Below, one piece after another: positions 7,902-28,330 of a stretch of DNA of 36,984 nt. Under the pieces are notes generated by a model. The model was not told where the DNA came from and made no database searches. It saw only the letters and a program-made list of their open reading frames with translations. Each line of letters opens with the position of its first letter. Position 1 is the first letter of the stretch. The stretch is from contig MENI01000103.1 in NCBI GenBank assembly GCA_001768195.1, positions 1 through 36,984 of the forward strand, written 5' to 3'. The stretch comes from Bacteroidetes bacterium GWA2_40_15 (lineage in GTDB: Bacteria; Bacteroidota; Bacteroidia; Bacteroidales; VadinHA17). The translations under genes and the position numbers were made by a program.

Positions 7902-8549
7902 CTATTCTCCCACTACCACCTTTGAAAACCTCAGTACCTTGTCCTGAAGATAGTAGCCTTTCAGTACAACATCTACAACTTTGCCTTTCATATCATCTTC
8001 GTTAACAGGTATCTTGGCAACTGCCTCGTGTATATCGACATTGAAACTGCTATTAAGAGCTTCAATTGCTTTTACTCCATTTTGTTTGAGGAATTCATTG
8101 AATTTGTTGTAAATAAGATCAATGCCGCTTTTCATTGCTGCACAATCCTTTGCTTCATCCATGTGCAGTATTGCCCTCTCAAAATCATCCATCAGAGGAA
8201 TTATGTTCAGAAGCAGGGTTTCTCCTGCATATTTTGATAAGTCGATTTTTTCCCGCAGTGTTCTTTTCCTGTAATTGTCAAATTCTGCAGAAAGACGGAT
8301 ATACCTATCCTGCATTTCTGCCAGTTTTGCCACTGTTTCTTTAAGTTCTTTTTCTACTTTGTCAGTTACCTGAGCTTCTTCGGTTTTTACCTCAGAGTCT
8401 GGCTGCTGCGACATGTATGATTCCGATTCTTCAGATTTATTCGCACCGTGATCATTATTCGGTAATGTATTATCCTTATTATCAGTTATATCTGTACCCG
8501 GGTTCTCTGTTTCCTCATCCCGGGTCTTTGTCTTTTTCTTCATCATCAT
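7902..8549 (-). CDS. grpE: Nucleotide exchange factor GrpE
   Basis: The 215 residues start with a long charged, low-complexity tail (about 1-65, rich in Lys, Asp, Glu, Thr), then a coiled-coil helix. The conserved C-terminal beta domain includes DIHEAV and VLKGYYLQDKVLR. GrpE releases ADP from DnaK. Three ATG codons in tandem open the frame, so the start is uncertain by one or two residues. It is the first gene of grpE-dnaJ. Confidence 0.95.
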   Translation of the reverse strand: MMMKKKTKTRDEETENPGTDITDNKDNTLPNNDHGANKSEESESYMSQQPDSEVKTEEAQVTDKVEKELKETVAKLAEMQDRYIRLSAEFDNYRKRTLREKIDLSKYAGETLLLNIIPLMDDFERAILHMDEAKDCAAMKSGIDLIYNKFNEFLKQNGVKAIEALNSSFNVDIHEAVAKIPVNEDDMKGKVVDVVLKGYYLQDKVLRFSKVVVGE

Positions 8550-8622
8550 AGCTAAGTTTCAAAATTACATTTCATTGTTATCAAAATATCTGCCAATGAG
8601 CCGGAGTTGACAAATTGACAGT

Positions 8623-8768
8623 AACGGCGCAACGGCACAACGGCACAACGGCGTAACGGCGCAACGGCGCAAGGGCACAACGGTGCAATGGCATATCAGC
8701 CTGAAAAAGATAGGATTAGAAGATTGGATTTGCCTTTAAGCCTTTGCGCCCTTGTGCCTTTGCGCCAT
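8623..8768. repeat. Tandem-word palindromic element upstream of grpE
   Basis: The left arm (8623-8692) is a run of about eight degenerate copies of an 8-9 base word (AACGGCGC, AACGGCAC and similar). The right arm (8733-8768) consists of TTTGCGCC/CTTGTGCC words, which are the reverse complement of the same type of word. The spacer is about 40 bases. The element fills most of the gap between grpE and the DUF4290 gene and ends 5 bases before the DUF4290 stop codon. Copy lengths vary, and there are no unique spacers. Confidence 0.6.
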
Positions 8769-8773
8769 ATTTA

Positions 8774-9421
8774 TTAATGCCTGCTGAATCCTTTTTTCTT
8801 GATGTATTGTTTATTCTGAGGTTTCCCATGGGGTTTCCCCTGAGGCTTCTTTCTTACCTGTGGTAAAAGCTCCCTTACTTCCAGGATTCTTACACCATCT
8901 GTCATTTTTAGTTTTCCCTTTGAAAGTACCTTCATATCGTTGATAATCACCTCATCGGCTACCTGGCTTCGGTTCCAGGTGACGTATGATTTTTTCATCT
9001 GATTTACAATGAGCGTAGTCAGGTACTCTTTTTCTTCACCCTCTTCCAGTTCAGTAGCAGCTTCGATCATCATGGCAATTATCCGGCCATAATGCAGAAA
9101 TCTGATATTTCCCTGCATATATGGAATCTGATTTGGTTTTTCAATAAGTTTTGATACCTCCGGTACAGGGTATGGTGAATCTATGTCAAGTTCAAAATCG
9201 GCAATTATTGCCAGGTGATCCCAGAGCTTATGCTTGAAATCACCGATATCACGAAGATGAGGATTCAGGTTACCCATGATCTGGATAATTGTCTTGGCGG
9301 CACGGTTTCTCTCATCCCTGTCCTTGATTGTCCTGATATGGTCAACCATCTTCTGGACATTTCTGCCATATTCAGGCAGCGCCATTCTCTTTCTCTGGGT
9401 ATTGTAATCGTAGTTCATCAT
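8774..9421 (-). CDS. DUF4290 family protein
   Basis: A 215-residue soluble protein resembling the Bacteroidota-restricted DUF4290 family, recognised from the N-terminal MNYDYNTQRKRMALPEYGRN-like block and the central LWDHLAIIADFELD region. The last 30 residues are basic and rich in Lys, Gln and Gly, which suggests nucleic-acid or ribosome contact, but no function is established. In other Bacteroidota this family is, from memory, often next to murA; here the only murA is 11 kb away and looks foreign. Two adjacent ATGs make the start ambiguous by one codon. Confidence 0.8.
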   Translation of the reverse strand: MMNYDYNTQRKRMALPEYGRNVQKMVDHIRTIKDRDERNRAAKTIIQIMGNLNPHLRDIGDFKHKLWDHLAIIADFELDIDSPYPVPEVSKLIEKPNQIPYMQGNIRFLHYGRIIAMMIEAATELEEGEEKEYLTTLIVNQMKKSYVTWNRSQVADEVIINDMKVLSKGKLKMTDGVRILEVRELLPQVRKKPQGKPHGKPQNKQYIKKKGFSRH

Positions 9422-18696: not shown

Positions 18697-20469
18697 CTAT
18701 TTCATGTAAACCTGGTCGAGGAGCTTCTGGTATTTTTCGGCGATGAATCTGCGCCTGAGTTTCAGGGTTGGCGATAATTCTCCGGTAGCAGGAGTCCATT
18801 CATCAGGTACAAGCCTGAACCGGTTTATCCGTTCGGCAGGATTAAGCCTTTTGTTTATCTTTTTAATCTCTGAATTAAAGTAAGTCTGTATTTCAGGCTG
18901 ACGGATCAGTTCGTCAGAGCCTGAGAAATCGATCTTACCTGATGATTTCAAGTCATCAAAGTATTTAAAGTTGGGAGAAATAAGGGCACTTGCAAATTTT
19001 TCATGTTCGCCCACCACCATAATCTGGTCGATGAGGGTTGATTCCCTGAAAATATTTTCAATAAGCTGAGGTGCAATGAATATTCCATTCGACAACTTGA
19101 AGATCTCCTTCTTCCGGTCTGCGACCATAAGGAATTTCTCATCTACCAGGCAGCCAATATCACCTGTATGAAACCATCCTTCGTTGTCAATAGCTGAATT
19201 AGTCAATTCAGGATCATTATAGTAGCCAAGCATCACATTAGGCCCTTTGCATAATATTTCTCCGTCTTCTGCGATCCTTACCTCAACACCTTCAATCACA
19301 AATCCTACCGATCCCAGCTTAGCACCTCCGTTATAGGTCCTGTTAATTGTTATTATTGGCGAGGTTTCGGTAAGACCGTACATATTTATGATTTTGATCC
19401 CCGCAGCCCAGAAGATCCTTTCAAGATGGGGAGGAAGGCTTGCCCCGCCGCAACCGACTATCCTTACGTTTCCACCCAGGGCAGCTCTCCATTTGCTGAA
19501 AATAAGCTTATCGGCAAGTTTTAATTTCTTTTCATACAGCCAGCCGTTGCCGCCGAAAGGTTTATATCTCAATCCGAGTTTTACAGCCCTGAAAAACAGT
19601 ATCTTCTTAATCCCTGTCAGCTTTTTGCCTTTGGATATTATAACATCGTAGAATTTTTCCAGAACACGCGGCACTGCATCAAATCCGTCGGGTTTAATTT
19701 CCTGCATGTTAACAGCGATAGTCCCCATACTTTCAGCATAATATATGCTGGCTCCGCTGTATTGTGTCTGATAGTTTCCCATCCGTCCGCCTACATGGCA
19801 CAACGGCAGAATGCTAAGGTACTTATCTGTCTGATTCAGATTAAAAACTGAAGCTGCAGAGACAAAGTTTGTTACAAGGTTTTTATGCGATAACATTACA
19901 CCCTTGGGTTTACCTGTTGTACCTGAGGTGTAGATAAGTGTAGCAAAAGTATCCCGGTCAATTTCAGATTTTATTTTTTCGATCTCTTTCCTGGTCTCAG
20001 CAGAAGATGATTTACCCTTTTCAACTATTTCCATCCAGTTTTTCACTCCACCGACTTCATCAAAGGTGTAAACCATGGATGAAAAGTCCTCATATTCAAA
20101 TGCCGGACTGACACACTTGTAAAGCTTCGGATCAGACACCAGGATCATCTTTGCACCGGAATTTCGGATAATATACTGATATTCAGATGTATTAAGAGAG
20201 GCAAAAACCGGAACATGAACAACCCCGATCATTGACATTCCCATATCTGCAAAGTTCCATTCAGGGCGGTTTGATGAAATAGTAATTATTTTATCCCCTT
20301 TTCTGAATCCCAGTTCATACAGCCCGCAGCAGAAGTTGTTTGAATAATCAACATATTCATTCGTGCTGAACTTTTTCCATGCGCCATTATGCTTGAAGCA
20401 AAGAGCATCCTCTTTCGGAAATTTCTCTGCATATCTTTCCAGCAGGTCGAAAGTTCTCAATACATCCAT
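18697..20469 (-). CDS. Long-chain acyl-CoA ligase (AMP-forming)
   Basis: About 590 residues of the ANL superfamily. The AMP-binding P-loop reads YTSGTTGKPKGVMLSH; the motif YGLTETSP, the adenylate-binding GWFHTGDIG and the hinge DRKKEIFK are present. The C-terminal catalytic lysine region has changed context but is there (NPAERINRF onwards). It resembles FAA1/FadD15-like long-chain ligases, which activate free fatty acids to acyl-CoA. The frame continues upstream to a TTG at 20505, but the ATG at 20469 (MDVLRTFDLLERY) fits the family start better. It is the first gene of a three-gene operon with the GNAT-like and CrtI-like genes and is divergent from murA. Confidence 0.88.
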   Translation of the reverse strand: MDVLRTFDLLERYAEKFPKEDALCFKHNGAWKKFSTNEYVDYSNNFCCGLYELGFRKGDKIITISSNRPEWNFADMGMSMIGVVHVPVFASLNTSEYQYIIRNSGAKMILVSDPKLYKCVSPAFEYEDFSSMVYTFDEVGGVKNWMEIVEKGKSSSAETRKEIEKIKSEIDRDTFATLIYTSGTTGKPKGVMLSHKNLVTNFVSAASVFNLNQTDKYLSILPLCHVGGRMGNYQTQYSGASIYYAESMGTIAVNMQEIKPDGFDAVPRVLEKFYDVIISKGKKLTGIKKILFFRAVKLGLRYKPFGGNGWLYEKKLKLADKLIFSKWRAALGGNVRIVGCGGASLPPHLERIFWAAGIKIINMYGLTETSPIITINRTYNGGAKLGSVGFVIEGVEVRIAEDGEILCKGPNVMLGYYNDPELTNSAIDNEGWFHTGDIGCLVDEKFLMVADRKKEIFKLSNGIFIAPQLIENIFRESTLIDQIMVVGEHEKFASALISPNFKYFDDLKSSGKIDFSGSDELIRQPEIQTYFNSEIKKINKRLNPAERINRFRLVPDEWTPATGELSPTLKLRRRFIAEKYQKLLDQVYMK

Positions 20470-20596
20470 CTCTGTAAGGTTTTCATGGTTTTGCAATATA
20501 TGCAATTTAGTAAATATCCGGGAAAATGTACTGTGCTATTATTTTCAGCTCGAATTAGCTTGCAGATATATAGTTTTTCTAATCTCACCAATCAAT

Positions 20597-20657: not shown

Positions 20658-21941
20658 ATGGATCGATTTGTCATTAAAGGCGGCCACCGGCTCAACGGGA
20701 CGGTCAAAATTCAAGGCAACAAAAATGAAGCACTTCCTGCAATAGCAGCGTGTTTGTTAACGGATGAGCCGGTTATTCTCCGCAATGTTCCACGCATTGG
20801 CGATGTGCTAGGTATGCTCGATATTCTCCGTCGTATGGGTGCAACAGTCAGAGAGTTTTCAAATAATGATTTTGAAATATGCTGCCAGGGTGTGCATGCT
20901 TCAGAGATCGACGTTGATAAAGCAAAGTCGTTACGTGCGGCAATTCTGTTTGCCGGACCGATGATCACGCGTTTCGATCACGTCATTCTCCCGCCTCCCG
21001 GTGGCGATGTCATAGGACGTCGTCGCCTCGACGATCACTTTTTGGCTTTTACATCTATGGGAGCAAAAGTGGAACAGGTTGATCGCAAATATTCTATTAG
21101 AAAAAGTAAACTCATTGGTGCGGATATTTTTCTCGAAGAGAAATCAGTAACGGCCACGGAAAATGCACTTATGGCCGCTGTTCTGGCCAGAGGACACACA
21201 ACCATCCGCAACGCAGCATGTGAACCTCATGTGGTTGGATTGACCAACATGCTCAACTCGATGGGTGCATGTATCTCCGGCGTTGGCTCCAATATTTTGG
21301 AAATTAACGGTGTCGACAATCTCGGAGGCACTATCCATACTATCGGTTCAGACCTGCTGGAAATTGGTGGTTATATTGTTCTGGCGGCAGTAACAAAATC
21401 TGCCATTACTGTTGATGGTGTCAATCCCGATGAAATTCGCGTCATTCGTTCAACCTACAACAAACTCGGCATCGATTTTGAATTGCATGGTGATAAACTT
21501 GTTGTACCGGCAAATCAAAAGATGATAATCCAGCCGGATTATAACGGCAATATCCCAAAGATTGATGATGGAACCTGGCCGGCGTTTCCGACCGACCTGA
21601 TGAGCATCGTCATCGTTGCTGCCACTCAGGCAAACGGCACTGTGCTGTTTTTTGAAAAAATGTACGACGGCCGTATGTTTTTTGTCGACCACCTCATTGG
21701 CATGGGCGCACAAATTGTCTTATGCGATCCGCATCGGGTTGTCGTTGTCGGTTCGTCGAAACTCTATGGTACTCAAGTCACCAGCCCGGATATCCGTGCC
21801 GGCATGGCATTAGTTATTGCGGCGTTATGCGCTGAGGGCGAAAGCGTGATATATAATGTGCGGCAGATTGACCGCGGTTACGAAAATCTTGAAGAGAAGC
21901 TCAAAAGTCTTGGTGCACACATTGAACGACTTTCAGATTAA
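20658..21941 (+). CDS. murA: UDP-N-acetylglucosamine 1-carboxyvinyltransferase, Asp-type (Cys115 replaced)
   Basis: 427 residues, full length. MurA transfers enolpyruvate from PEP to UDP-GlcNAc, the first committed step of peptidoglycan synthesis, in the cytoplasm. The catalytic pair K22 N23 (GNKNEALP) is present, as are the FPTD block, the substrate-loop arginine (YDGRMFF) and the C-terminal DIRAG and IDRGYE blocks. The mobile-loop cysteine is replaced: PGGDVIG has Asp117 where E. coli has Cys115. That change is known to abolish fosfomycin alkylation while keeping activity, as in mycobacteria. Arginine codons are mostly CGT/CGC, unlike the AGA/AGG of the neighbours, and C-ending codons are commoner, so the gene looks acquired. 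The ATG at 20658 fits the promoter. murB follows after 72 bases. Confidence 0.93.
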   Translation: MDRFVIKGGHRLNGTVKIQGNKNEALPAIAACLLTDEPVILRNVPRIGDVLGMLDILRRMGATVREFSNNDFEICCQGVHASEIDVDKAKSLRAAILFAGPMITRFDHVILPPPGGDVIGRRRLDDHFLAFTSMGAKVEQVDRKYSIRKSKLIGADIFLEEKSVTATENALMAAVLARGHTTIRNAACEPHVVGLTNMLNSMGACISGVGSNILEINGVDNLGGTIHTIGSDLLEIGGYIVLAAVTKSAITVDGVNPDEIRVIRSTYNKLGIDFELHGDKLVVPANQKMIIQPDYNGNIPKIDDGTWPAFPTDLMSIVIVAATQANGTVLFFEKMYDGRMFFVDHLIGMGAQIVLCDPHRVVVVGSSKLYGTQVTSPDIRAGMALVIAALCAEGESVIYNVRQIDRGYENLEEKLKSLGAHIERLSD

Positions 21942-22013
21942 ACCGGGCAAAACTGTCGAAGGGTCAGAGAAACTGATCAACCCTGATGGTACTGACACTA
22001 TTTCACGAATTAA

Positions 22014-22931
22014 ATGAATCGGGCCATGAGTACCATAATTGATTTTCCGCCACAACTCGATATACAACAAAATGTTCCACTGTCCCATTTTACAAACATC
22101 AAGATCGGTGGCCCTGCGGATTATCTATCCGTCATAAAAGATCAAAATATTTACATTGAATTATTCCGCTTTTGCCGAGAGATTGGGCTACCGTTTTTGG
22201 CGCTTGGTGACGGAACCAATGTGTTCTTTCCCGAAACCGGATACCACGGTATAGTCGCCATTATCAAGTTTGACAGTGTGGGTCTGATGTCGAAAAATAC
22301 AATTGTTGCCGAGGCTGGCACATCGCTTAATAAGATTCGCGAGTTGTGCATCGAAACAGGCTTGACCGGATTCGAATTTGCATCCGGTATTCCAGGCAGC
22401 ATTGGTGGCGCCATTTATGGCAACGCCGGCGCCTACGGCAGCAATGTCGGCGAGATTTTAACCCGAGCCAAAGTGCTGACGCCTGACGGTCAGATCAGAT
22501 TCGTCAAAAACGATTTTTTTAAATTCTCCTACCGGCACTCGGATTTGAAAATCAATCCTGCCATCGTTTTGCAGGCTGAATTTCAATTGAAAAAGGGCGA
22601 TCCCGCAGCGATAAAATCACGATGCGATGAGATCATCAACATCCGTACAAAAAAATTACCACCGTCAGACACGCTCACCGCAGGCTCCTGGTTCAAAAAC
22701 ATCAAAGACGAACAGGGAAACTCCACAGCTGCGGCGCAATATCTCGAAGCCGTCGGTTCCAGGCAGACGAGTGTCGGCGATGCGGCAGTACACATCAGAC
22801 ACGCCAATATTTTTTATAACAAGGGCAAAGCCACAGCAACGGACATGCTGAAACTAGAGGACATTTTGCAGAAGAGAGTTTATAAAAAATTCGGTATTCG
22901 GCTGGAACGGGAAGTAATGTATTTGGATTGA
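22014..22931 (+). CDS. murB: UDP-N-acetylenolpyruvoylglucosamine reductase
   Basis: 305 residues. MurB reduces the enolpyruvyl product of MurA with NADPH and FAD to give UDP-MurNAc. FAD-binding blocks are visible: TNIKIGGPAD, LGDGTNVFF, FASGIPGSIGGAIYGNAGAYG. The catalytic Ser lies in GSWFKN and the catalytic Glu in LEREV at the C-terminus. SYRHSDL holds the arginine. HANIFYNKGKATATD and the absence of the type I insertion place it with type II MurB. Codon use is the same foreign type as murA. The start is ATG 22014 or, five codons later, 22026. Having murA and murB alone as a pair, outside a dcw cluster, is unusual. Confidence 0.93.
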   Translation: MNRAMSTIIDFPPQLDIQQNVPLSHFTNIKIGGPADYLSVIKDQNIYIELFRFCREIGLPFLALGDGTNVFFPETGYHGIVAIIKFDSVGLMSKNTIVAEAGTSLNKIRELCIETGLTGFEFASGIPGSIGGAIYGNAGAYGSNVGEILTRAKVLTPDGQIRFVKNDFFKFSYRHSDLKINPAIVLQAEFQLKKGDPAAIKSRCDEIINIRTKKLPPSDTLTAGSWFKNIKDEQGNSTAAAQYLEAVGSRQTSVGDAAVHIRHANIFYNKGKATATDMLKLEDILQKRVYKKFGIRLEREVMYLD

Positions 22932-23138: not shown

Positions 23139-24104
23139 TTATTTATTTCTTAACCATTTTTCATACTCCTGTTTGATATCTTCATTATTAATAAAAGGTT
23201 TGTAAACCATTCTTGCCTTGAAGCTGTATTCCTTACCAGTTTTTGGATCGGGAATTAAATACTGGAAATCCCAGGCAGGATTAGTACTACCTCCGCCTGT
23301 CGGGGATTGGGTTAACCTGATAACTTCAGATGATTCAAAGAAGTATGCCAATGCCATATTATGAAAACGGCCAAAATAAAATGGAAGTGAATAACGGTAA
23401 TCAGAATAATTATTTGCCAGACTTGCCTTAAAGTCCCGGGCAAAGAAAAAATCAAAATTATCATTCATTCCCCTGTGTGTACTTTTCAGGCCATGCTTTT
23501 CGGAAAAAGCAGAGATCCAGTTTTCAACTGACTGACCTTCAGGTACGCCCAGGAAATAAATATTCCTGTCAGGTGGTTTATTAATGTAACTGGCCCAGAA
23601 AAAGCCAGCATAACCATGCCTGAAATGTTTTTTATCATGCAATATGCAGCGGAAAGTTATGTCAATATAATAAGGAGCAACAAGCTTAAATTCAGTCAGG
23701 CTCTCTGCTCCGGAGATTGGTGTCGTTTTCTGGTAAAGGAGAACCTCCGTTTCACTTTTTTTGTATAAGGTCATAGGATTAACCCGCGGTTCAAAAAGCT
23801 GTGCCAGGCTGTCGCCGCTGAAAACATGTTCAAGGTTGAATCCGGCATACGCCCGTACAAATACCGTTGAATCCTGATCAGAGTGATATAGTTCTGCGAT
23901 ACCGTTATAACCGGCTCTGTGATCGGGCGGCAAGTCGGTGTTGTCAATAAAGACCGCTTTCAGGTTTCTATTTTCAATAACTAGAGTCTTCACTGGTTCA
24001 TAATCAGCAGATTCCAGTGTAATGACCTTCTTTTCTGAACATGAGACTACAACCAAAAGTGAAAGAAAAATGGGAAATAACCGTAATCTTTTACATGAAT
24101 CCAT
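23139..24104 (-). CDS. Lipoprotein of unknown function
   Basis: 321 residues. A signal peptide with lipobox VVVSC (Cys22) predicts a lipid-anchored protein in the cell envelope. The mature part is rich in aromatic residues and alternating strands with no motif I can assign (FWASYINKP, YFGRFHNMALAYFFES are the most distinctive stretches). The beta-rich pattern could be a galactose-mutarotase-like or carbohydrate-recognition fold, as in uncharacterised proteins of sugar-degrading bacteria, but this is a guess. It is converging with murB, 207 bases away, and its codon use is that of the host. Confidence 0.7.
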   Translation of the reverse strand: MDSCKRLRLFPIFLSLLVVVSCSEKKVITLESADYEPVKTLVIENRNLKAVFIDNTDLPPDHRAGYNGIAELYHSDQDSTVFVRAYAGFNLEHVFSGDSLAQLFEPRVNPMTLYKKSETEVLLYQKTTPISGAESLTEFKLVAPYYIDITFRCILHDKKHFRHGYAGFFWASYINKPPDRNIYFLGVPEGQSVENWISAFSEKHGLKSTHRGMNDNFDFFFARDFKASLANNYSDYRYSLPFYFGRFHNMALAYFFESSEVIRLTQSPTGGGSTNPAWDFQYLIPDPKTGKEYSFKARMVYKPFINNEDIKQEYEKWLRNK

Positions 24105-24242
24105 TTAAGTAGTTTCCAAGTGATTTAAACTTTCATATTTCTTCGTTATCCAGCAGGTATCTGACGCAGGGCTTTTATTCAGGTTTTCCTTCACCTTAAG
24201 ATCCTTCCTGATAATAGCTATGATCAATATTTCAAAGATACT

Positions 24243-24258
24243 CCCGATGGTTATCGGG
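24243..24258 (-). terminator. Hairpin downstream of hicB
   Basis: CCCGAT at 24243-24248 and ATCGGG at 24253-24258 form a perfect 6-bp stem with a 4-base loop, 17 bases beyond the hicB stop. No T-run follows on the minus strand, so termination is only likely, not certain. Confidence 0.4.
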
Positions 24259-24275
24259 TCTGAAAGCAATTCACA

Positions 24276-24614
24276 TTAATTATCGACCCTCAGTTCCTTT
24301 TCAACAGCTTTTTTAATAAATCCATTCAATGTGGTGCCACTTTTAATAGCCTCAATTGCAGCCTTTTTGTGTATTTCCGGTGTAAGACGAACATTAAAAA
24401 CTCCGGTATATGTTTTATATGGTTTTATGCCTTTTGCCCTGCAGAGTTCCAGGTAATCGGATATGGCTTCCCTGAAAGCCTCTTTTAACTTTTTTACTGA
24501 CTCCCCTTCAAAAGTTACAAGTGCATTTATCCCCTCAATCTTTCCGAAGAAAACTCCATCCTCCTCACTGAAATTAACACTGCCGATAAAATCCTTATAC
24601 TTTAATGTATTCAT
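24276..24614 (-). CDS. hicB: HicB-family antitoxin
   Basis: 112 residues. The N-terminal half (about 1-70) is the degenerate RNase H-like HicB fold (VSxEDGVFFGKIEGI-type strand pattern, then a helix with EAFREAISDYLELC). The C-terminal part (about 75-112) is a ribbon-helix-helix segment (FNVRLTPEIHKKAAIEAIK) that binds the operator. It neutralises HicA and represses the operon. The ATG is 13 bases after the hicA stop, so the two are co-transcribed in the usual toxin-first order. Confidence 0.87.
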   Translation of the reverse strand: MNTLKYKDFIGSVNFSEEDGVFFGKIEGINALVTFEGESVKKLKEAFREAISDYLELCRAKGIKPYKTYTGVFNVRLTPEIHKKAAIEAIKSGTTLNGFIKKAVEKELRVDN

Positions 24615-24627
24615 GGATCATCTTTTA

Positions 24628-24897
24628 TTAGTTCTCTTTTTTTATAAATCCTAGTGTTTCGAGTTCCTGCAAAACATTTTTCATTGCATAGGCTTTCATA
24701 ATGTTCCCGGGGTGAGGTTTATGAAGCATAATAGAATGCCTCTTCTCCCTGTTATAGAAAATCACCCTTGATCCTGAAGTCTTTCCTTTATTCTCCGCAA
24801 TATATCCAAAACCATTCAGGAGCCTTGTTAATTCCCTATATGTAAAATCTTTAGGCTGCCTTAGAAACCGCTCAATGAGTTTTTCTTGTGTACTCAT
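24628..24897 (-). CDS. hicA: HicA-family toxin, variant active site
   Basis: 89 residues with a double-stranded RNA-binding-like HicA fold. HicA toxins cleave mRNA using a His in a GSH motif. Here the strand reads TSGSRVIFY with Arg44 at that place, while HSIMLHKPHPGN further on keeps the conserved HKPHPG block. Members of this longer HicA group often show the same change, so the protein may use another His (54, 59 or 62) or be a weak or inactive nuclease. An operator-like dyad lies directly upstream. Confidence 0.8.
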   Translation of the reverse strand: MSTQEKLIERFLRQPKDFTYRELTRLLNGFGYIAENKGKTSGSRVIFYNREKRHSIMLHKPHPGNIMKAYAMKNVLQELETLGFIKKEN

Positions 24898-24916
24898 GAA
24901 TCAATTAATAAACAAA

Positions 24917-24937
24917 TGTAACTAAAAAACAGTTACA
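24917..24937. promoter_or_regulatory. Operator-like dyad upstream of hicAB
   Basis: TGTAACT (24917-24923) and AGTTACA (24931-24937) are perfect inverted 7-base arms with a 7-base spacer, 20 bases before the hicA ATG. On the minus strand the dyad overlaps TACATTTG (24913-24920), a match to the -7 box TAnnTTTG. This is where an autorepressing HicB ribbon-helix-helix dimer would be expected to sit. Confidence 0.5.
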
Positions 24938-24990
24938 AGTAATAAAATATGTTTAATAATTTATTCAATTTTGATGTTTTCCGGTGAAAA

Positions 24991-26127
24991 TCAATGTTTT
25001 CTGGCATTAGAATCATCCTTATCATCCATATTGGCAACATATCCCTCCGGAGCAGTGCAGGCATGAAAAGGTTTTGCAGGGTTGCCATAACCATCTCCGT
25101 CTTCATCCTTAAAGAATGCTGTAACTGTACAGTCTCCTGCCTTAATTGTCTGATCCATAGCCCTCAGCAGAGAGAGGTCCCCTTTAGTGTCACATGGGAT
25201 CTCCCAGATCATTACCCCACCGAGGGTTTTCTTTGCCAGTTCTGTCTTTTTCACGATCATAGGGATGCCATTATAGTACCTCATTCCGGCAGAATCAACA
25301 TAGGCAAGTGAAATATCATTTGCAATAATTTCACTGTAATCGATATATCTTGCCGGGGGTGTGAAATCAAATCCATAGAATGGAACACCCAGTGTTATTC
25401 TTTCGGCAGGGATCTTCAGATCGACAGTCCAGTATTTTATTGCATCCTCTGCATATGACCATGGTGAATGAGGACCAATTATATTCGGTCTCCATACTCC
25501 GGTCTTGTCATAAACCATAACATTAATGAAGTCGTAGGCTTCAAGAGCTTCCTGGTGAACATTATGATGAAAACGGGTGGCACCGAGCGCTGCAGTAATT
25601 GCTTTTCCTTTTGAATGGAGGGCTTCTCTCAGCTCCACAACAAACGGATTGTAATTCACACCGACGTATGGCAGAAGGTTACCTTCGATATCCACATCTA
25701 CACCATCAAGGTTATTTTCTTCCACATACTTCAGTATGTTTCCAATGAACCTTGTCCTGTTTTCGGGCAGCAGCAGATTTTTCCAGATTATAGTATCGGG
25801 TCTGCCACCTCCTGCAAGTGAAATAAAGACTTTCAGACCTGCATCATGGCCCTTTTTTATTACTGGCTTTACATCAAAACCGCCATCGCAAACCAGATTC
25901 CCATCTTTATCAGGATTGGCAAAAGCCAGGTTCAGGTAGGTCAGTTTTTCAATCTCAAGTGAATCTATCCTGTCAAAACTCCATCCTGAGATGTATCCCA
26001 CTACCTTGAAGGTTGTGTCAGGTTTATAAATATCAGGTCCCCAGTTGTGATTTTCGGTTTTGCAGGATGTAATCAACAAAAAGCTGATAATCGCAAACAT
26101 TAATGATTCCAATTCAGATGTTTTCAT
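24991..26127 (-). CDS. GH18-family chitinase-like lipoprotein with metal-binding tail
   Basis: 378 residues. Signal peptide with lipobox ITSC (Cys22), so probably surface or periplasmic. The glycoside hydrolase family 18 barrel has the catalytic DGVDVDIE (141-148, Glu148 as acid), SLAGGG before it, and MVYD and GVMIWEI in the later strands. Likely substrates are chitin, chitobiose-containing glycans or peptidoglycan-like beta-1,4-GlcNAc. After the barrel, the last 40 residues (FKDEDGDGYGNP, then ACTAPEGYV, then DDKDDSN) match the Asp/Gly-rich putative metal-binding motif seen in MopE-like and Bacteroidota surface proteins. It is divergent from ndh; a Rex-like site lies in the shared intergenic region. 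Confidence 0.84.
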   Translation of the reverse strand: MKTSELESLMFAIISFLLITSCKTENHNWGPDIYKPDTTFKVVGYISGWSFDRIDSLEIEKLTYLNLAFANPDKDGNLVCDGGFDVKPVIKKGHDAGLKVFISLAGGGRPDTIIWKNLLLPENRTRFIGNILKYVEENNLDGVDVDIEGNLLPYVGVNYNPFVVELREALHSKGKAITAALGATRFHHNVHQEALEAYDFINVMVYDKTGVWRPNIIGPHSPWSYAEDAIKYWTVDLKIPAERITLGVPFYGFDFTPPARYIDYSEIIANDISLAYVDSAGMRYYNGIPMIVKKTELAKKTLGGVMIWEIPCDTKGDLSLLRAMDQTIKAGDCTVTAFFKDEDGDGYGNPAKPFHACTAPEGYVANMDDKDDSNARKH

Positions 26128-26340: not shown

Positions 26341-27615
26341 ATGTTGAATATCCCGGATACAGGCAAGAAGAGAATTGTTATTGTTGGTTGTGGTTTCGCA
26401 GGACTTACTGTGGCAAGAAAACTAAAGAATTCTGGCTACCAGGTGGTAATAATTGACAAGCATAATTATCATCAGTTTCCTCCATTATTCTACCAGGTGG
26501 CATCTGCAGGACTTGATGAAAGCTCAATTCTATTCCCTTTAAGGAAAATATTTCAGAATTACAGCGACTATTACATAAGGAAAGCTGAGGTTAAGTCAAT
26601 AGATCCTCTCTGTAAAAAACTGGTTACATCAGGAGGGACAATCCGTTTTGACTTTCTGCTGTTAGCTCATGGTGCAACAAACTCCTTTTTTGGTTCAATC
26701 CAGATGCAGCAACATTCAAAGGCGATGAAGACAATCGCTGAGGTCATTGATCTGAGAAATAGTCTCCTGATGAATTTCGAGAATGCCCTTATTATAAGTG
26801 ATGAATCGGAGAGAGAAAGCTACCTGAATATTGTTATTATCGGTGGTGGTCCTTCGGGTGTTGAAATTGCCGGTGCGCTTGCAGAGATGAATAAACATAT
26901 AATCCCCAAAGACTACCCGGAACTAAGAACAAACGGACCCAGAATATTTCTTATTGAAGCAGCAGACAGGTTGCTTAATATGATGTCAGCAAAATCATCT
27001 GCAAAGGCTCAGGAATTTCTTGAGAATTCAGGCGTAAAAGTCATGACCACGACAAAGGCTGTTGGATGCGATGATGATACAGTTTATATAGATTCAGGAA
27101 ATAACATTAAAACCAAAATGATAATCTGGACTGCGGGTATTAAAGGAAACATAATTGATGGACTTAATAATGAGGTTTATACAAGAAGCGGGAGGATTAT
27201 CGTAGACAGAAAAAACCAGATAAAGGGTTACGAAGATATTTTCGCTATCGGAGATATTGCCTGGATGGCTGAAAATAAATACCCTAAAGGACATCCCCAG
27301 GTAGCACAGGTTGCAATTCAGCAGGCTAAACTTCTGGCGGAAAATTTGAAGTGCAGAATATCAGGCAGGTCTGAGAAAGAATTTCATTACAGGGATCTGG
27401 GAACTATGGCAACAATAGGTAGGCATCTTGCAGTAGTGGAGTTGCCATTTGTTAATTTTCAGGGGATATTTGCATGGTACGTCTGGATGTTCATTCACCT
27501 TATGAGTATAGTCGGTGTAAGGAATAAGCTGATAGTATTCTTCAACTGGGCCTGGAAGTATCTTACTTATGATCAGTCAACAAGGCTTATATTAAGGCCC
27601 AAGGGATATTCCTGA
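26341..27615 (+). CDS. ndh: Type II NADH:quinone oxidoreductase (NDH-2)
   Basis: 424 residues with two Rossmann folds. The first (GCGFAGLTVA near residue 18) binds FAD. The second (IGGGPSGVEIAG near residue 168) binds NADH. FPPLFYQVASAGL and the AIGDIAW block are typical of NDH-2. The C-terminal segment (AWYVWMFIHLMSIVG, then FFNWAWKYLTYD) forms the hydrophobic membrane anchor. It passes electrons from NADH to quinone without pumping ions, so it disposes of NADH. The ATG at 26341 gives the normal N-terminus, and the dedA-family gene follows after about 100 bases. Confidence 0.93.
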   Translation: MLNIPDTGKKRIVIVGCGFAGLTVARKLKNSGYQVVIIDKHNYHQFPPLFYQVASAGLDESSILFPLRKIFQNYSDYYIRKAEVKSIDPLCKKLVTSGGTIRFDFLLLAHGATNSFFGSIQMQQHSKAMKTIAEVIDLRNSLLMNFENALIISDESERESYLNIVIIGGGPSGVEIAGALAEMNKHIIPKDYPELRTNGPRIFLIEAADRLLNMMSAKSSAKAQEFLENSGVKVMTTTKAVGCDDDTVYIDSGNNIKTKMIIWTAGIKGNIIDGLNNEVYTRSGRIIVDRKNQIKGYEDIFAIGDIAWMAENKYPKGHPQVAQVAIQQAKLLAENLKCRISGRSEKEFHYRDLGTMATIGRHLAVVELPFVNFQGIFAWYVWMFIHLMSIVGVRNKLIVFFNWAWKYLTYDQSTRLILRPKGYS

Positions 27616-27712
27616 CCTCAGTGTATGAAAGAATTGCCGGTAACATTAAAAAAGGTTAACATTGCGTCCTGTCCGTCAGGAATAGAACTTTAGTGACTTA
27701 AAATATTATTAT

Positions 27713-28330
27713 ATGATAGAGATTATAGAAACGGTTTTTGAATGGTATATGGGGCATCTCAATTATTTTACAATTGGCTTTCTGATGGCCATTGAAAGTT
27801 CTTTTATTCCCTTCCCCTCCGAGGTAGTTATCCCTTTTGCTGCCTATAAGGCTGCTCAGGGTGATCTTAACATCTTTCTTGTAGTTATAGCAGGCACAAT
27901 AGGAGCACTTATCGGGGCAATGGTTAATTATGCCATTGGATATTATCTTGGCCGTCCATTAATACATAAACTTGCCGATTCGAAATTTGGAAGGCTCATG
28001 CTTCTGTCTGAAGAAAAAGTGATCCATGCAGAAGAGTATTTTGTAAAAAACGGTAAGAGTTCCACCCTGATCGGACGTCTGGTACCGGGGATCAGACAGC
28101 TTATTTCAATTCCTGCGGGACTTGCAAAAATGAATATGAAAGACTTTATTGTCTACACATTGATAGGCGCCGGAGCCTGGAATATTATACTTGCAGTAAT
28201 AGGGTATTTTTTATATGAGATAAGGGATCAGATATATCCTCATATAGGTCATATAATGCTGGTACTGGGTGCTGTATTTGTCGTTTATCTTGTGGTAAAA
28301 GCAAGGAAGAACAATAAAAGAAAGGTGTAG
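27713..28330 (+). CDS. DedA-family membrane protein
   Basis: 205 residues with about five hydrophobic segments. The family blocks are present: ESSFIPFPSEVVIP near residue 28, YYLGRPL, then GRLVPGIRQLISIPAG with the conserved Arg residues and Gly/Pro turn. DedA proteins act as flippases or scavengers of undecaprenyl phosphate and related phospholipids and affect membrane potential and envelope integrity. The short hydrophilic C-terminus is lysine-rich. It converges with the porin gene, 16 bases between stops. Confidence 0.9.
   Translation: MIEIIETVFEWYMGHLNYFTIGFLMAIESSFIPFPSEVVIPFAAYKAAQGDLNIFLVVIAGTIGALIGAMVNYAIGYYLGRPLIHKLADSKFGRLMLLSEEKVIHAEEYFVKNGKSSTLIGRLVPGIRQLISIPAGLAKMNMKDFIVYTLIGAGAWNIILAVIGYFLYEIRDQIYPHIGHIMLVLGAVFVVYLVVKARKNNKRKV

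Follow-up and report, generated by a model that had tools for sequence, protein, structure and literature searches.

A KSB1-like murA-murB pair in a Bacteroidales genome with an emptied native murA site, and joint absence of both genes in other members of its genus

The genome of Bacteroidetes bacterium GWA2_40_15 carries, as its only detected MurA and MurB genes, an adjacent pair whose closest relatives were found in candidate division KSB1, while the site occupied by murA in related genomes is empty. Both the pair and the emptied site lie on the 36,984-bp contig analysed here (the window). DUF4290, DUF3810 and Porin_O_P genes, which are markers of Bacteroidota, point to that phylum. MurA and MurB are commonly regarded as essential enzymes, and MurA serves as a target for drugs. 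The reading we favour, with a probability of roughly 0.78, is that a KSB1-like murA-murB pair was acquired and the native genes were lost, in a genus that tolerates such loss over a background of N-acetylmuramic acid (MurNAc) salvage. The original prediction for this DNA concerned an aspartate in the catalytic loop of MurA; foreign affinity and native gene loss, which are the notable features, were absent from that first reading.

The murA-murB pair and the emptied native site

The features used below are, in the order of the window:
7902..8549, minus strand: grpE, which follows native murA in genus genomes (PF01025, 140.3 bits; synteny)
8550..8773, unstranded: site from which native murA is missing, the DUF4290 gene and grpE being 224 bp apart here (genus spacing comparison)
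8774..9421, minus strand: DUF4290 gene, which precedes native murA in genus genomes (PF14123, 245.6 bits; present in 59/59 genus genomes)
18697..20505, minus strand: acyl-CoA ligase gene, genus-like left flank of the pair (80% to locus L174 of genome G015)
20658..21941, plus strand: KSB1-like murA; no other MurA was detected in the genome (TIGR01072, 474 bits; 77% to KSB1; tree support 100/99)
21006..21008, plus strand: GAT codon of Asp117, at the position of E. coli Cys115 (translation, alignment, codon)
22014..22931, plus strand: KSB1-like murB adjoining murA; no other MurB was detected in the genome (NCBIfam TIGR00179, 175.9 bits, cut-off 144.5; tree support 100/99)

Window MurA was 46-50% identical to the MurA sampled from its genus and order, as compared with a mutual identity of 75-96% among 12 genus MurA. 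The best public matches were three candidate division KSB1 metagenome-assembled genomes (MAGs; 77, 77 and 67%), followed by Bradymonadales (58%) and Deltaproteobacteria (54%). For murB, identities to the same KSB1 loci were 73, 72 and 52% (72-73% to L082 and L083), and in these loci murA and murB are adjacent as well. The KSB1 pairs (L082, L083, L084) were thus the closest for both genes and share gene order, orientation and the Asp loop with the window pair; they differ from it in sequence (67-77% identity for MurA, 52-73% for MurB) and in the higher GC content of their murA (0.51-0.58 versus 0.472). In a tree of window MurA and 54 hand-picked loci, the window sequence grouped with KSB1 (100/99), separate from the native clade of the class (100/100). 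The MurB tree, built on 43 rows of which 42 were distinct, gave the same picture (100/99 and 100/100), with long branches meeting elsewhere in it flagged. Base composition pointed to murB more than to murA: GC was 0.472 for murA and 0.462 for murB versus 0.367-0.440 for the other listed window ORFs, and third-position GC was 0.513 for murB and only mildly raised for murA (0.449), against a mean of 0.409 (sd 0.030, n = 26).

In both gene trees the pair falls among sequences of another phylum, apart from its own clade, and native counterparts are absent (the murA site is empty; no native-type murB was found, and its old site was not located), the pattern of a xenologous pair. As the native clade lies elsewhere in the trees, we infer from these sequences that transfer went from a KSB1-like donor into the genus. 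The donor comparison covers three KSB1 MAGs, and the pair may really have come from a relative that this sample does not include.

A single MurA match was detected in the window genome, which is 99.98% complete with 1.06% contamination. Two of its proteins matched PF00275, namely window MurA and AroA (TIGR01356, 375 bits, cut-off 287), and a search across the genome for a second MurA, including one of the Cys type, found none. The suggestion that the gene might supply a second peptidoglycan entry, for which such a search had been proposed as a check, could thus not be upheld, and no further MurA was present beside which it would be a paralogue of the MurA2 type. Likewise, the gene adjoining murA was the only MurB and the sole MurB_C match. 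The foreign pair (20658-22931) would have come from a KSB1-like bacterium and would now perform the enolpyruvyl transfer and the reduction that convert UDP-GlcNAc to UDP-MurNAc, no other route for this having been detected.

In the genus, murA stands in the arrangement DUF4290-murA-grpE, its start abutting the DUF4290 stop. At this site in the window the murA ORF is missing and its downstream spacer is still recognisable, and no remnant of native murA was found between 8550 and 8773. The DUF4290-grpE spacing, measurable in 55 of the 59 genus genomes, is bimodal, with 1354-1766 bp in 48 genomes and 172-271 bp in seven: G000 (the window genome), G002, G007, G009, G012, G224 and G228. Deletion scars differ between genomes, and G228 retains approximately the first 38 murA codons. 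The native murA thus appears to have been deleted from its conserved place in the window genome. Intergenic repeats of the type GGCACAAGGGCGCAAAGGC and its complement were observed at the emptied site (8560-8773); similar repeats follow murA in G015.

Joint absence of murA and murB and the history of the pair

Native-type murB was absent from all seven of the 59 genus genomes with an emptied murA site, and six of these seven contained no credible MurA or MurB, yet Mur ligases were present. In G002, G009, G012, G224 and G228 the single PF00275 match was AroA-sized (309-330 bits), AroA identity having been assigned by family scan for the window genome and by size for the others. MurB_C was missing in nine of 59 genomes, i.e. 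G002, G007, G009, G012, G224 and G228 together with G006, G208 and G212, the last three of which retain murA; as all are drafts of 75-100% completeness, an individual absence may be a gap. With the window genome counted as lacking native-type murB, co-loss was seen in 7/7 genomes with an emptied site versus 3/52 of the remainder (p = 3.5e-7) and, among 35 better genomes, in 5/5 versus 1/30 (p = 1.8e-5), in Fisher tests that ignore relatedness. When relatedness was taken into account, about five of five independent pairs agreed (sign test, p = 0.0625), too few for significance.

A species tree was built from 65 gathered rows, of which 10 with fewer than 350 aligned residues (G002, G003, G004, G031 and six outgroup genomes) were dropped, leaving 55 genomes, all of the genus. 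On this tree, which does not include G002, the emptied state needs five changes. The sister of G000 is G015, in which native murA and a native-type murB are retained, and a single clade of G000 and G009 was rejected (p-AU = 9.6e-8). Nested among the murA-less genomes is G014, which keeps murA and murB (L079, G014:C11; L205, G014:C36), its MurB being long-branched. G014 may be a sole survivor or represent a regain within the genus, and since it keeps both genes, one or more losses may have taken place around it.

An extra Cys-type MurA in G007 (L062, G007:C85, 1-3089) was considered as a replacement and rejected, because it groups with Bacillota and has SpoIID and DUF1779 genes as neighbours on its 3.1-kb contig, which is probably a Bacillota contaminant. 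The wider order was surveyed in 296 genomes of 95% completeness or better, three of them genus members; G052, G339, G341, G435 and G494 (5/293 outside the genus) had no MurA match at 1e-10, and these may be possible further losses or gaps.

The foreign pair would either have displaced native genes that were still present or have restored a pathway already lost. We hold the chances to be about even that the foreign pair came first and that native murA and murB became redundant and were then lost, with salvage playing no part in this species. Such a sequence of events fits a window genome from which both native genes are absent and in which a complete foreign pair is present, and it fits sister genome G015, whose native genes indicate that both were present in the shared ancestor. 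However, other genus genomes have lost both genes with no replacement found, so that loss needs no prior gain, and the native genes of G015 do not decide between the two histories. We regard more tentatively, though as a serious possibility, a history in which an ancestor of the window species was a MurNAc auxotroph devoid of murA and murB, and an independent supply was regained through the two-gene murA-murB operon of another phylum; the genus would then switch repeatedly between producing its own MurNAc and obtaining it from neighbours.

The surroundings of the pair bear on whether the arrangement might be an artefact. The acyl-CoA ligase gene of G015 that matches the left flank of the window pair is followed by a CstA gene. 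To the right of the pair, genes at 26341-28330 have genus matches, and genes at 23139-26127 have none in the loci compared. A HicB-HicA toxin-antitoxin pair (PF05534, PF07927; 24276-24897) lies near the foreign pair and was likewise unmatched in the genus loci compared. No convincing flanking repeats were found as signs of a mobile element at the pair, an Rfam scan of the window gave no match, no tRNA was found in the window, and promoter matches were near the shuffle mean.

A chimeric contig or mixed MAG, with the native genes residing in unassembled DNA, is in our view improbable. All genomes used are drafts, that of the window consisting of 127 contigs, and contaminant contigs do exist in relatives, as in G007. 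Nevertheless, one contig holds the genus block with the emptied site as well as the genus-like left flank, and the right-hand genes also match the genus; these flanks argue against a contaminant contig, while a chimera is still conceivable. Moreover, contiguous emptied sites combined with joint absence of MurB in six other genomes are unlike gaps, and outside the genus only 5/293 sampled order genomes of at least 95% completeness lacked a MurA match.

The loop aspartate of MurA and fosfomycin

Window MurA is an intact protein of 427 amino acids that scored 474 bits against NCBIfam TIGR01072 (cut-off 392.7) and was matched by solved MurA structures over its full length. Its predicted model (AlphaFold; pLDDT 91.4, pTM 0.90) reached TM values of approximately 0.9 or more against MurA structures in the PDB, including C115D and C116D mutants. 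The original prediction had placed Asp at the position of E. coli Cys115 in an otherwise complete MurA, and this was borne out: in a phmmer alignment with 5bq2, Asp117, encoded by GAT at 21006-21008, lies under the Cys of the PGGC loop. Model residues 118-121 fall below a pLDDT of 50, so that the shape of the loop is poorly resolved there. The Lys, Asn, Asp and Arg residues said to be kept were found intact as well, K22, N23, R122, D313 and R406 being invariant in an alignment of 16 sequences; we take them to be E. coli K22, N23, R120, D305 and R397, and we presume the corresponding residue roles. A family score above the curated cut-off, the MurA fold and these conserved residues all assign the protein to MurA, and it is predicted to be active.

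Asp occupied the loop site in all 53 readable genus MurA, that of the window included (six of the 59 genomes offered no MurA loop residue to read), in 31/32 MurA examined from the same order outside the genus, and in 35/35 from other orders of the class; a separate search of relatives gave Asp in 29/29 loci. Cys was found in 14/14 MurA from other classes of the phylum, a sample chosen from a larger match set, and in 73 of the 80 public loci retained, the other seven (L082-L087, L154) having Asp. Asp thus appears from these samples to be the rule in the organism's class, and hence ordinary where it stands.

Two MurA sequences depart from their surroundings. The exception within the order, in G051 (L073, G051:C3, 6001-7257, minus strand), has a loop Cys (PPGGCVIGKRGLDIH), branches basally among the Asp-type sequences in the tree and adjoins a murB with 26% identity to window murB; it is another odd MurA, possibly acquired too. 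L154, from Candidatus Uhrbacteria, is a distantly related MurA with Asp in its loop (VGGDAIGPRPVNFH); it falls on the side of the tree formed by Cys-type sequences, and its Asp apparently arose independently.

In the available part of one review, Cys115Asp MurA is reported as active and fosfomycin-insensitive in E. coli, and natural Asp enzymes are reported from three intrinsically resistant pathogens (PMC4790336). Window MurA resembles these in that Asp replaces the catalytic Cys and the enzyme is otherwise an ordinary MurA, and insensitivity is on this basis a reasonable prediction. It differs in that Asp is here the rule of the whole class sampled, so that any insensitivity would be a class trait, and in that this copy would have arrived by transfer and taken the place of an enzyme that also had Asp. 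The Cys-to-Asp reading of the original prediction is therefore retained as far as the reported activity and insensitivity go, and its extension to a special resistance determinant is not supported. Even with insensitivity reported for Asp at this site, it is very unlikely that the enzyme was acquired as a fosfomycin-resistance determinant, as native MurA of genus and class already carries Asp and leaves no special resistance to be gained, no change from a sensitive native state was found, and murA was accompanied by murB, on which fosfomycin does not act.

A salvage background for the loss of both genes

Mur ligase domains were detected in 59/59 genus genomes, indicating that precursors are probably still assembled, and six of the 59 draft genomes combined absence of MurA and MurB with presence of the later Mur steps. 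The likely reason why the genus would tolerate an emptied site with no credible MurA or MurB in these six is a conserved cluster of NagX-like, AmgK-like and MurU-like genes, which may turn salvaged MurNAc into UDP-MurNAc. The cluster was found in the window genome (L314) and in murA-less G009 (L302). AmgK-like matches occurred in 55/59 genus genomes (absent from G031, G208, G211 and G224) and, with scores below curated cut-offs, in five of the six murA-less genomes (missing in G224); among 30 retained AmgK-like loci, a MurU-like gene was adjacent in all 30 and a NagX-like membrane gene in 28. Scores lay far below the curated cut-offs (AmgK, 46-50 of 550; MurU, 125 of 250; NagX, 157 of 480), and the genes are therefore treated as homologues of putative function. 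The AmgK and MurU candidates sit on a contig other than the window's. Two window genes that immediately precede the native murA site had been considered as MurU and AmgK and were rejected, their Pfam assignments being DsbD_2 and PGA_cap. Another conserved APH-family gene beside a NagP-like transporter (L298 scanned) gave no NCBIfam match at 1e-5.

According to the available parts of two papers, Tannerella forsythia has neither murA nor murB and relies on MurNAc from outside; AmgK and MurU are proposed to supply its UDP-MurNAc (PMC7670621; PMC5790795). Several members of the present genus resemble it in lacking both genes, and AmgK and MurU are here too proposed to feed UDP-MurNAc. The two cases differ in several respects: glmS and glmU are also absent from T. 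forsythia, as far as the available text goes, and its MurNAc dependence is reported, that of the genus members being a prediction from gene content; here, several apparently separate losses fall within one genus, known from assemblies alone; and one genus member has a foreign murA-murB. In the literature listings searched, no murA-murB transfer or loss was recognised beyond T. forsythia, and titles and abstract openings on MurNAc auxotrophs gave only T. forsythia and a review of the oral microbiota.

In Caulobacter, loss of amgK is reported, in the available part of the source, to raise fosfomycin sensitivity (PMC13046382), which fits a salvage route feeding the same pool. The AmgK-MurU recycling of Pseudomonas and Caulobacter described there shares with the present cluster kinase-like and uridylyltransferase-like genes side by side; here these genes score below cut-offs and are joined by a NagX-like gene, and the route may be the sole one in some species.

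The best reading of these genomes would seem to be that de novo synthesis of UDP-MurNAc was lost repeatedly against a background of salvage. If true, the genus would serve as a natural experiment: with both steps lost several times and one species carrying a transferred pair, it would show how bacteria become dependent on their neighbours for a sugar of the cell wall, and how such dependence can be reversed.
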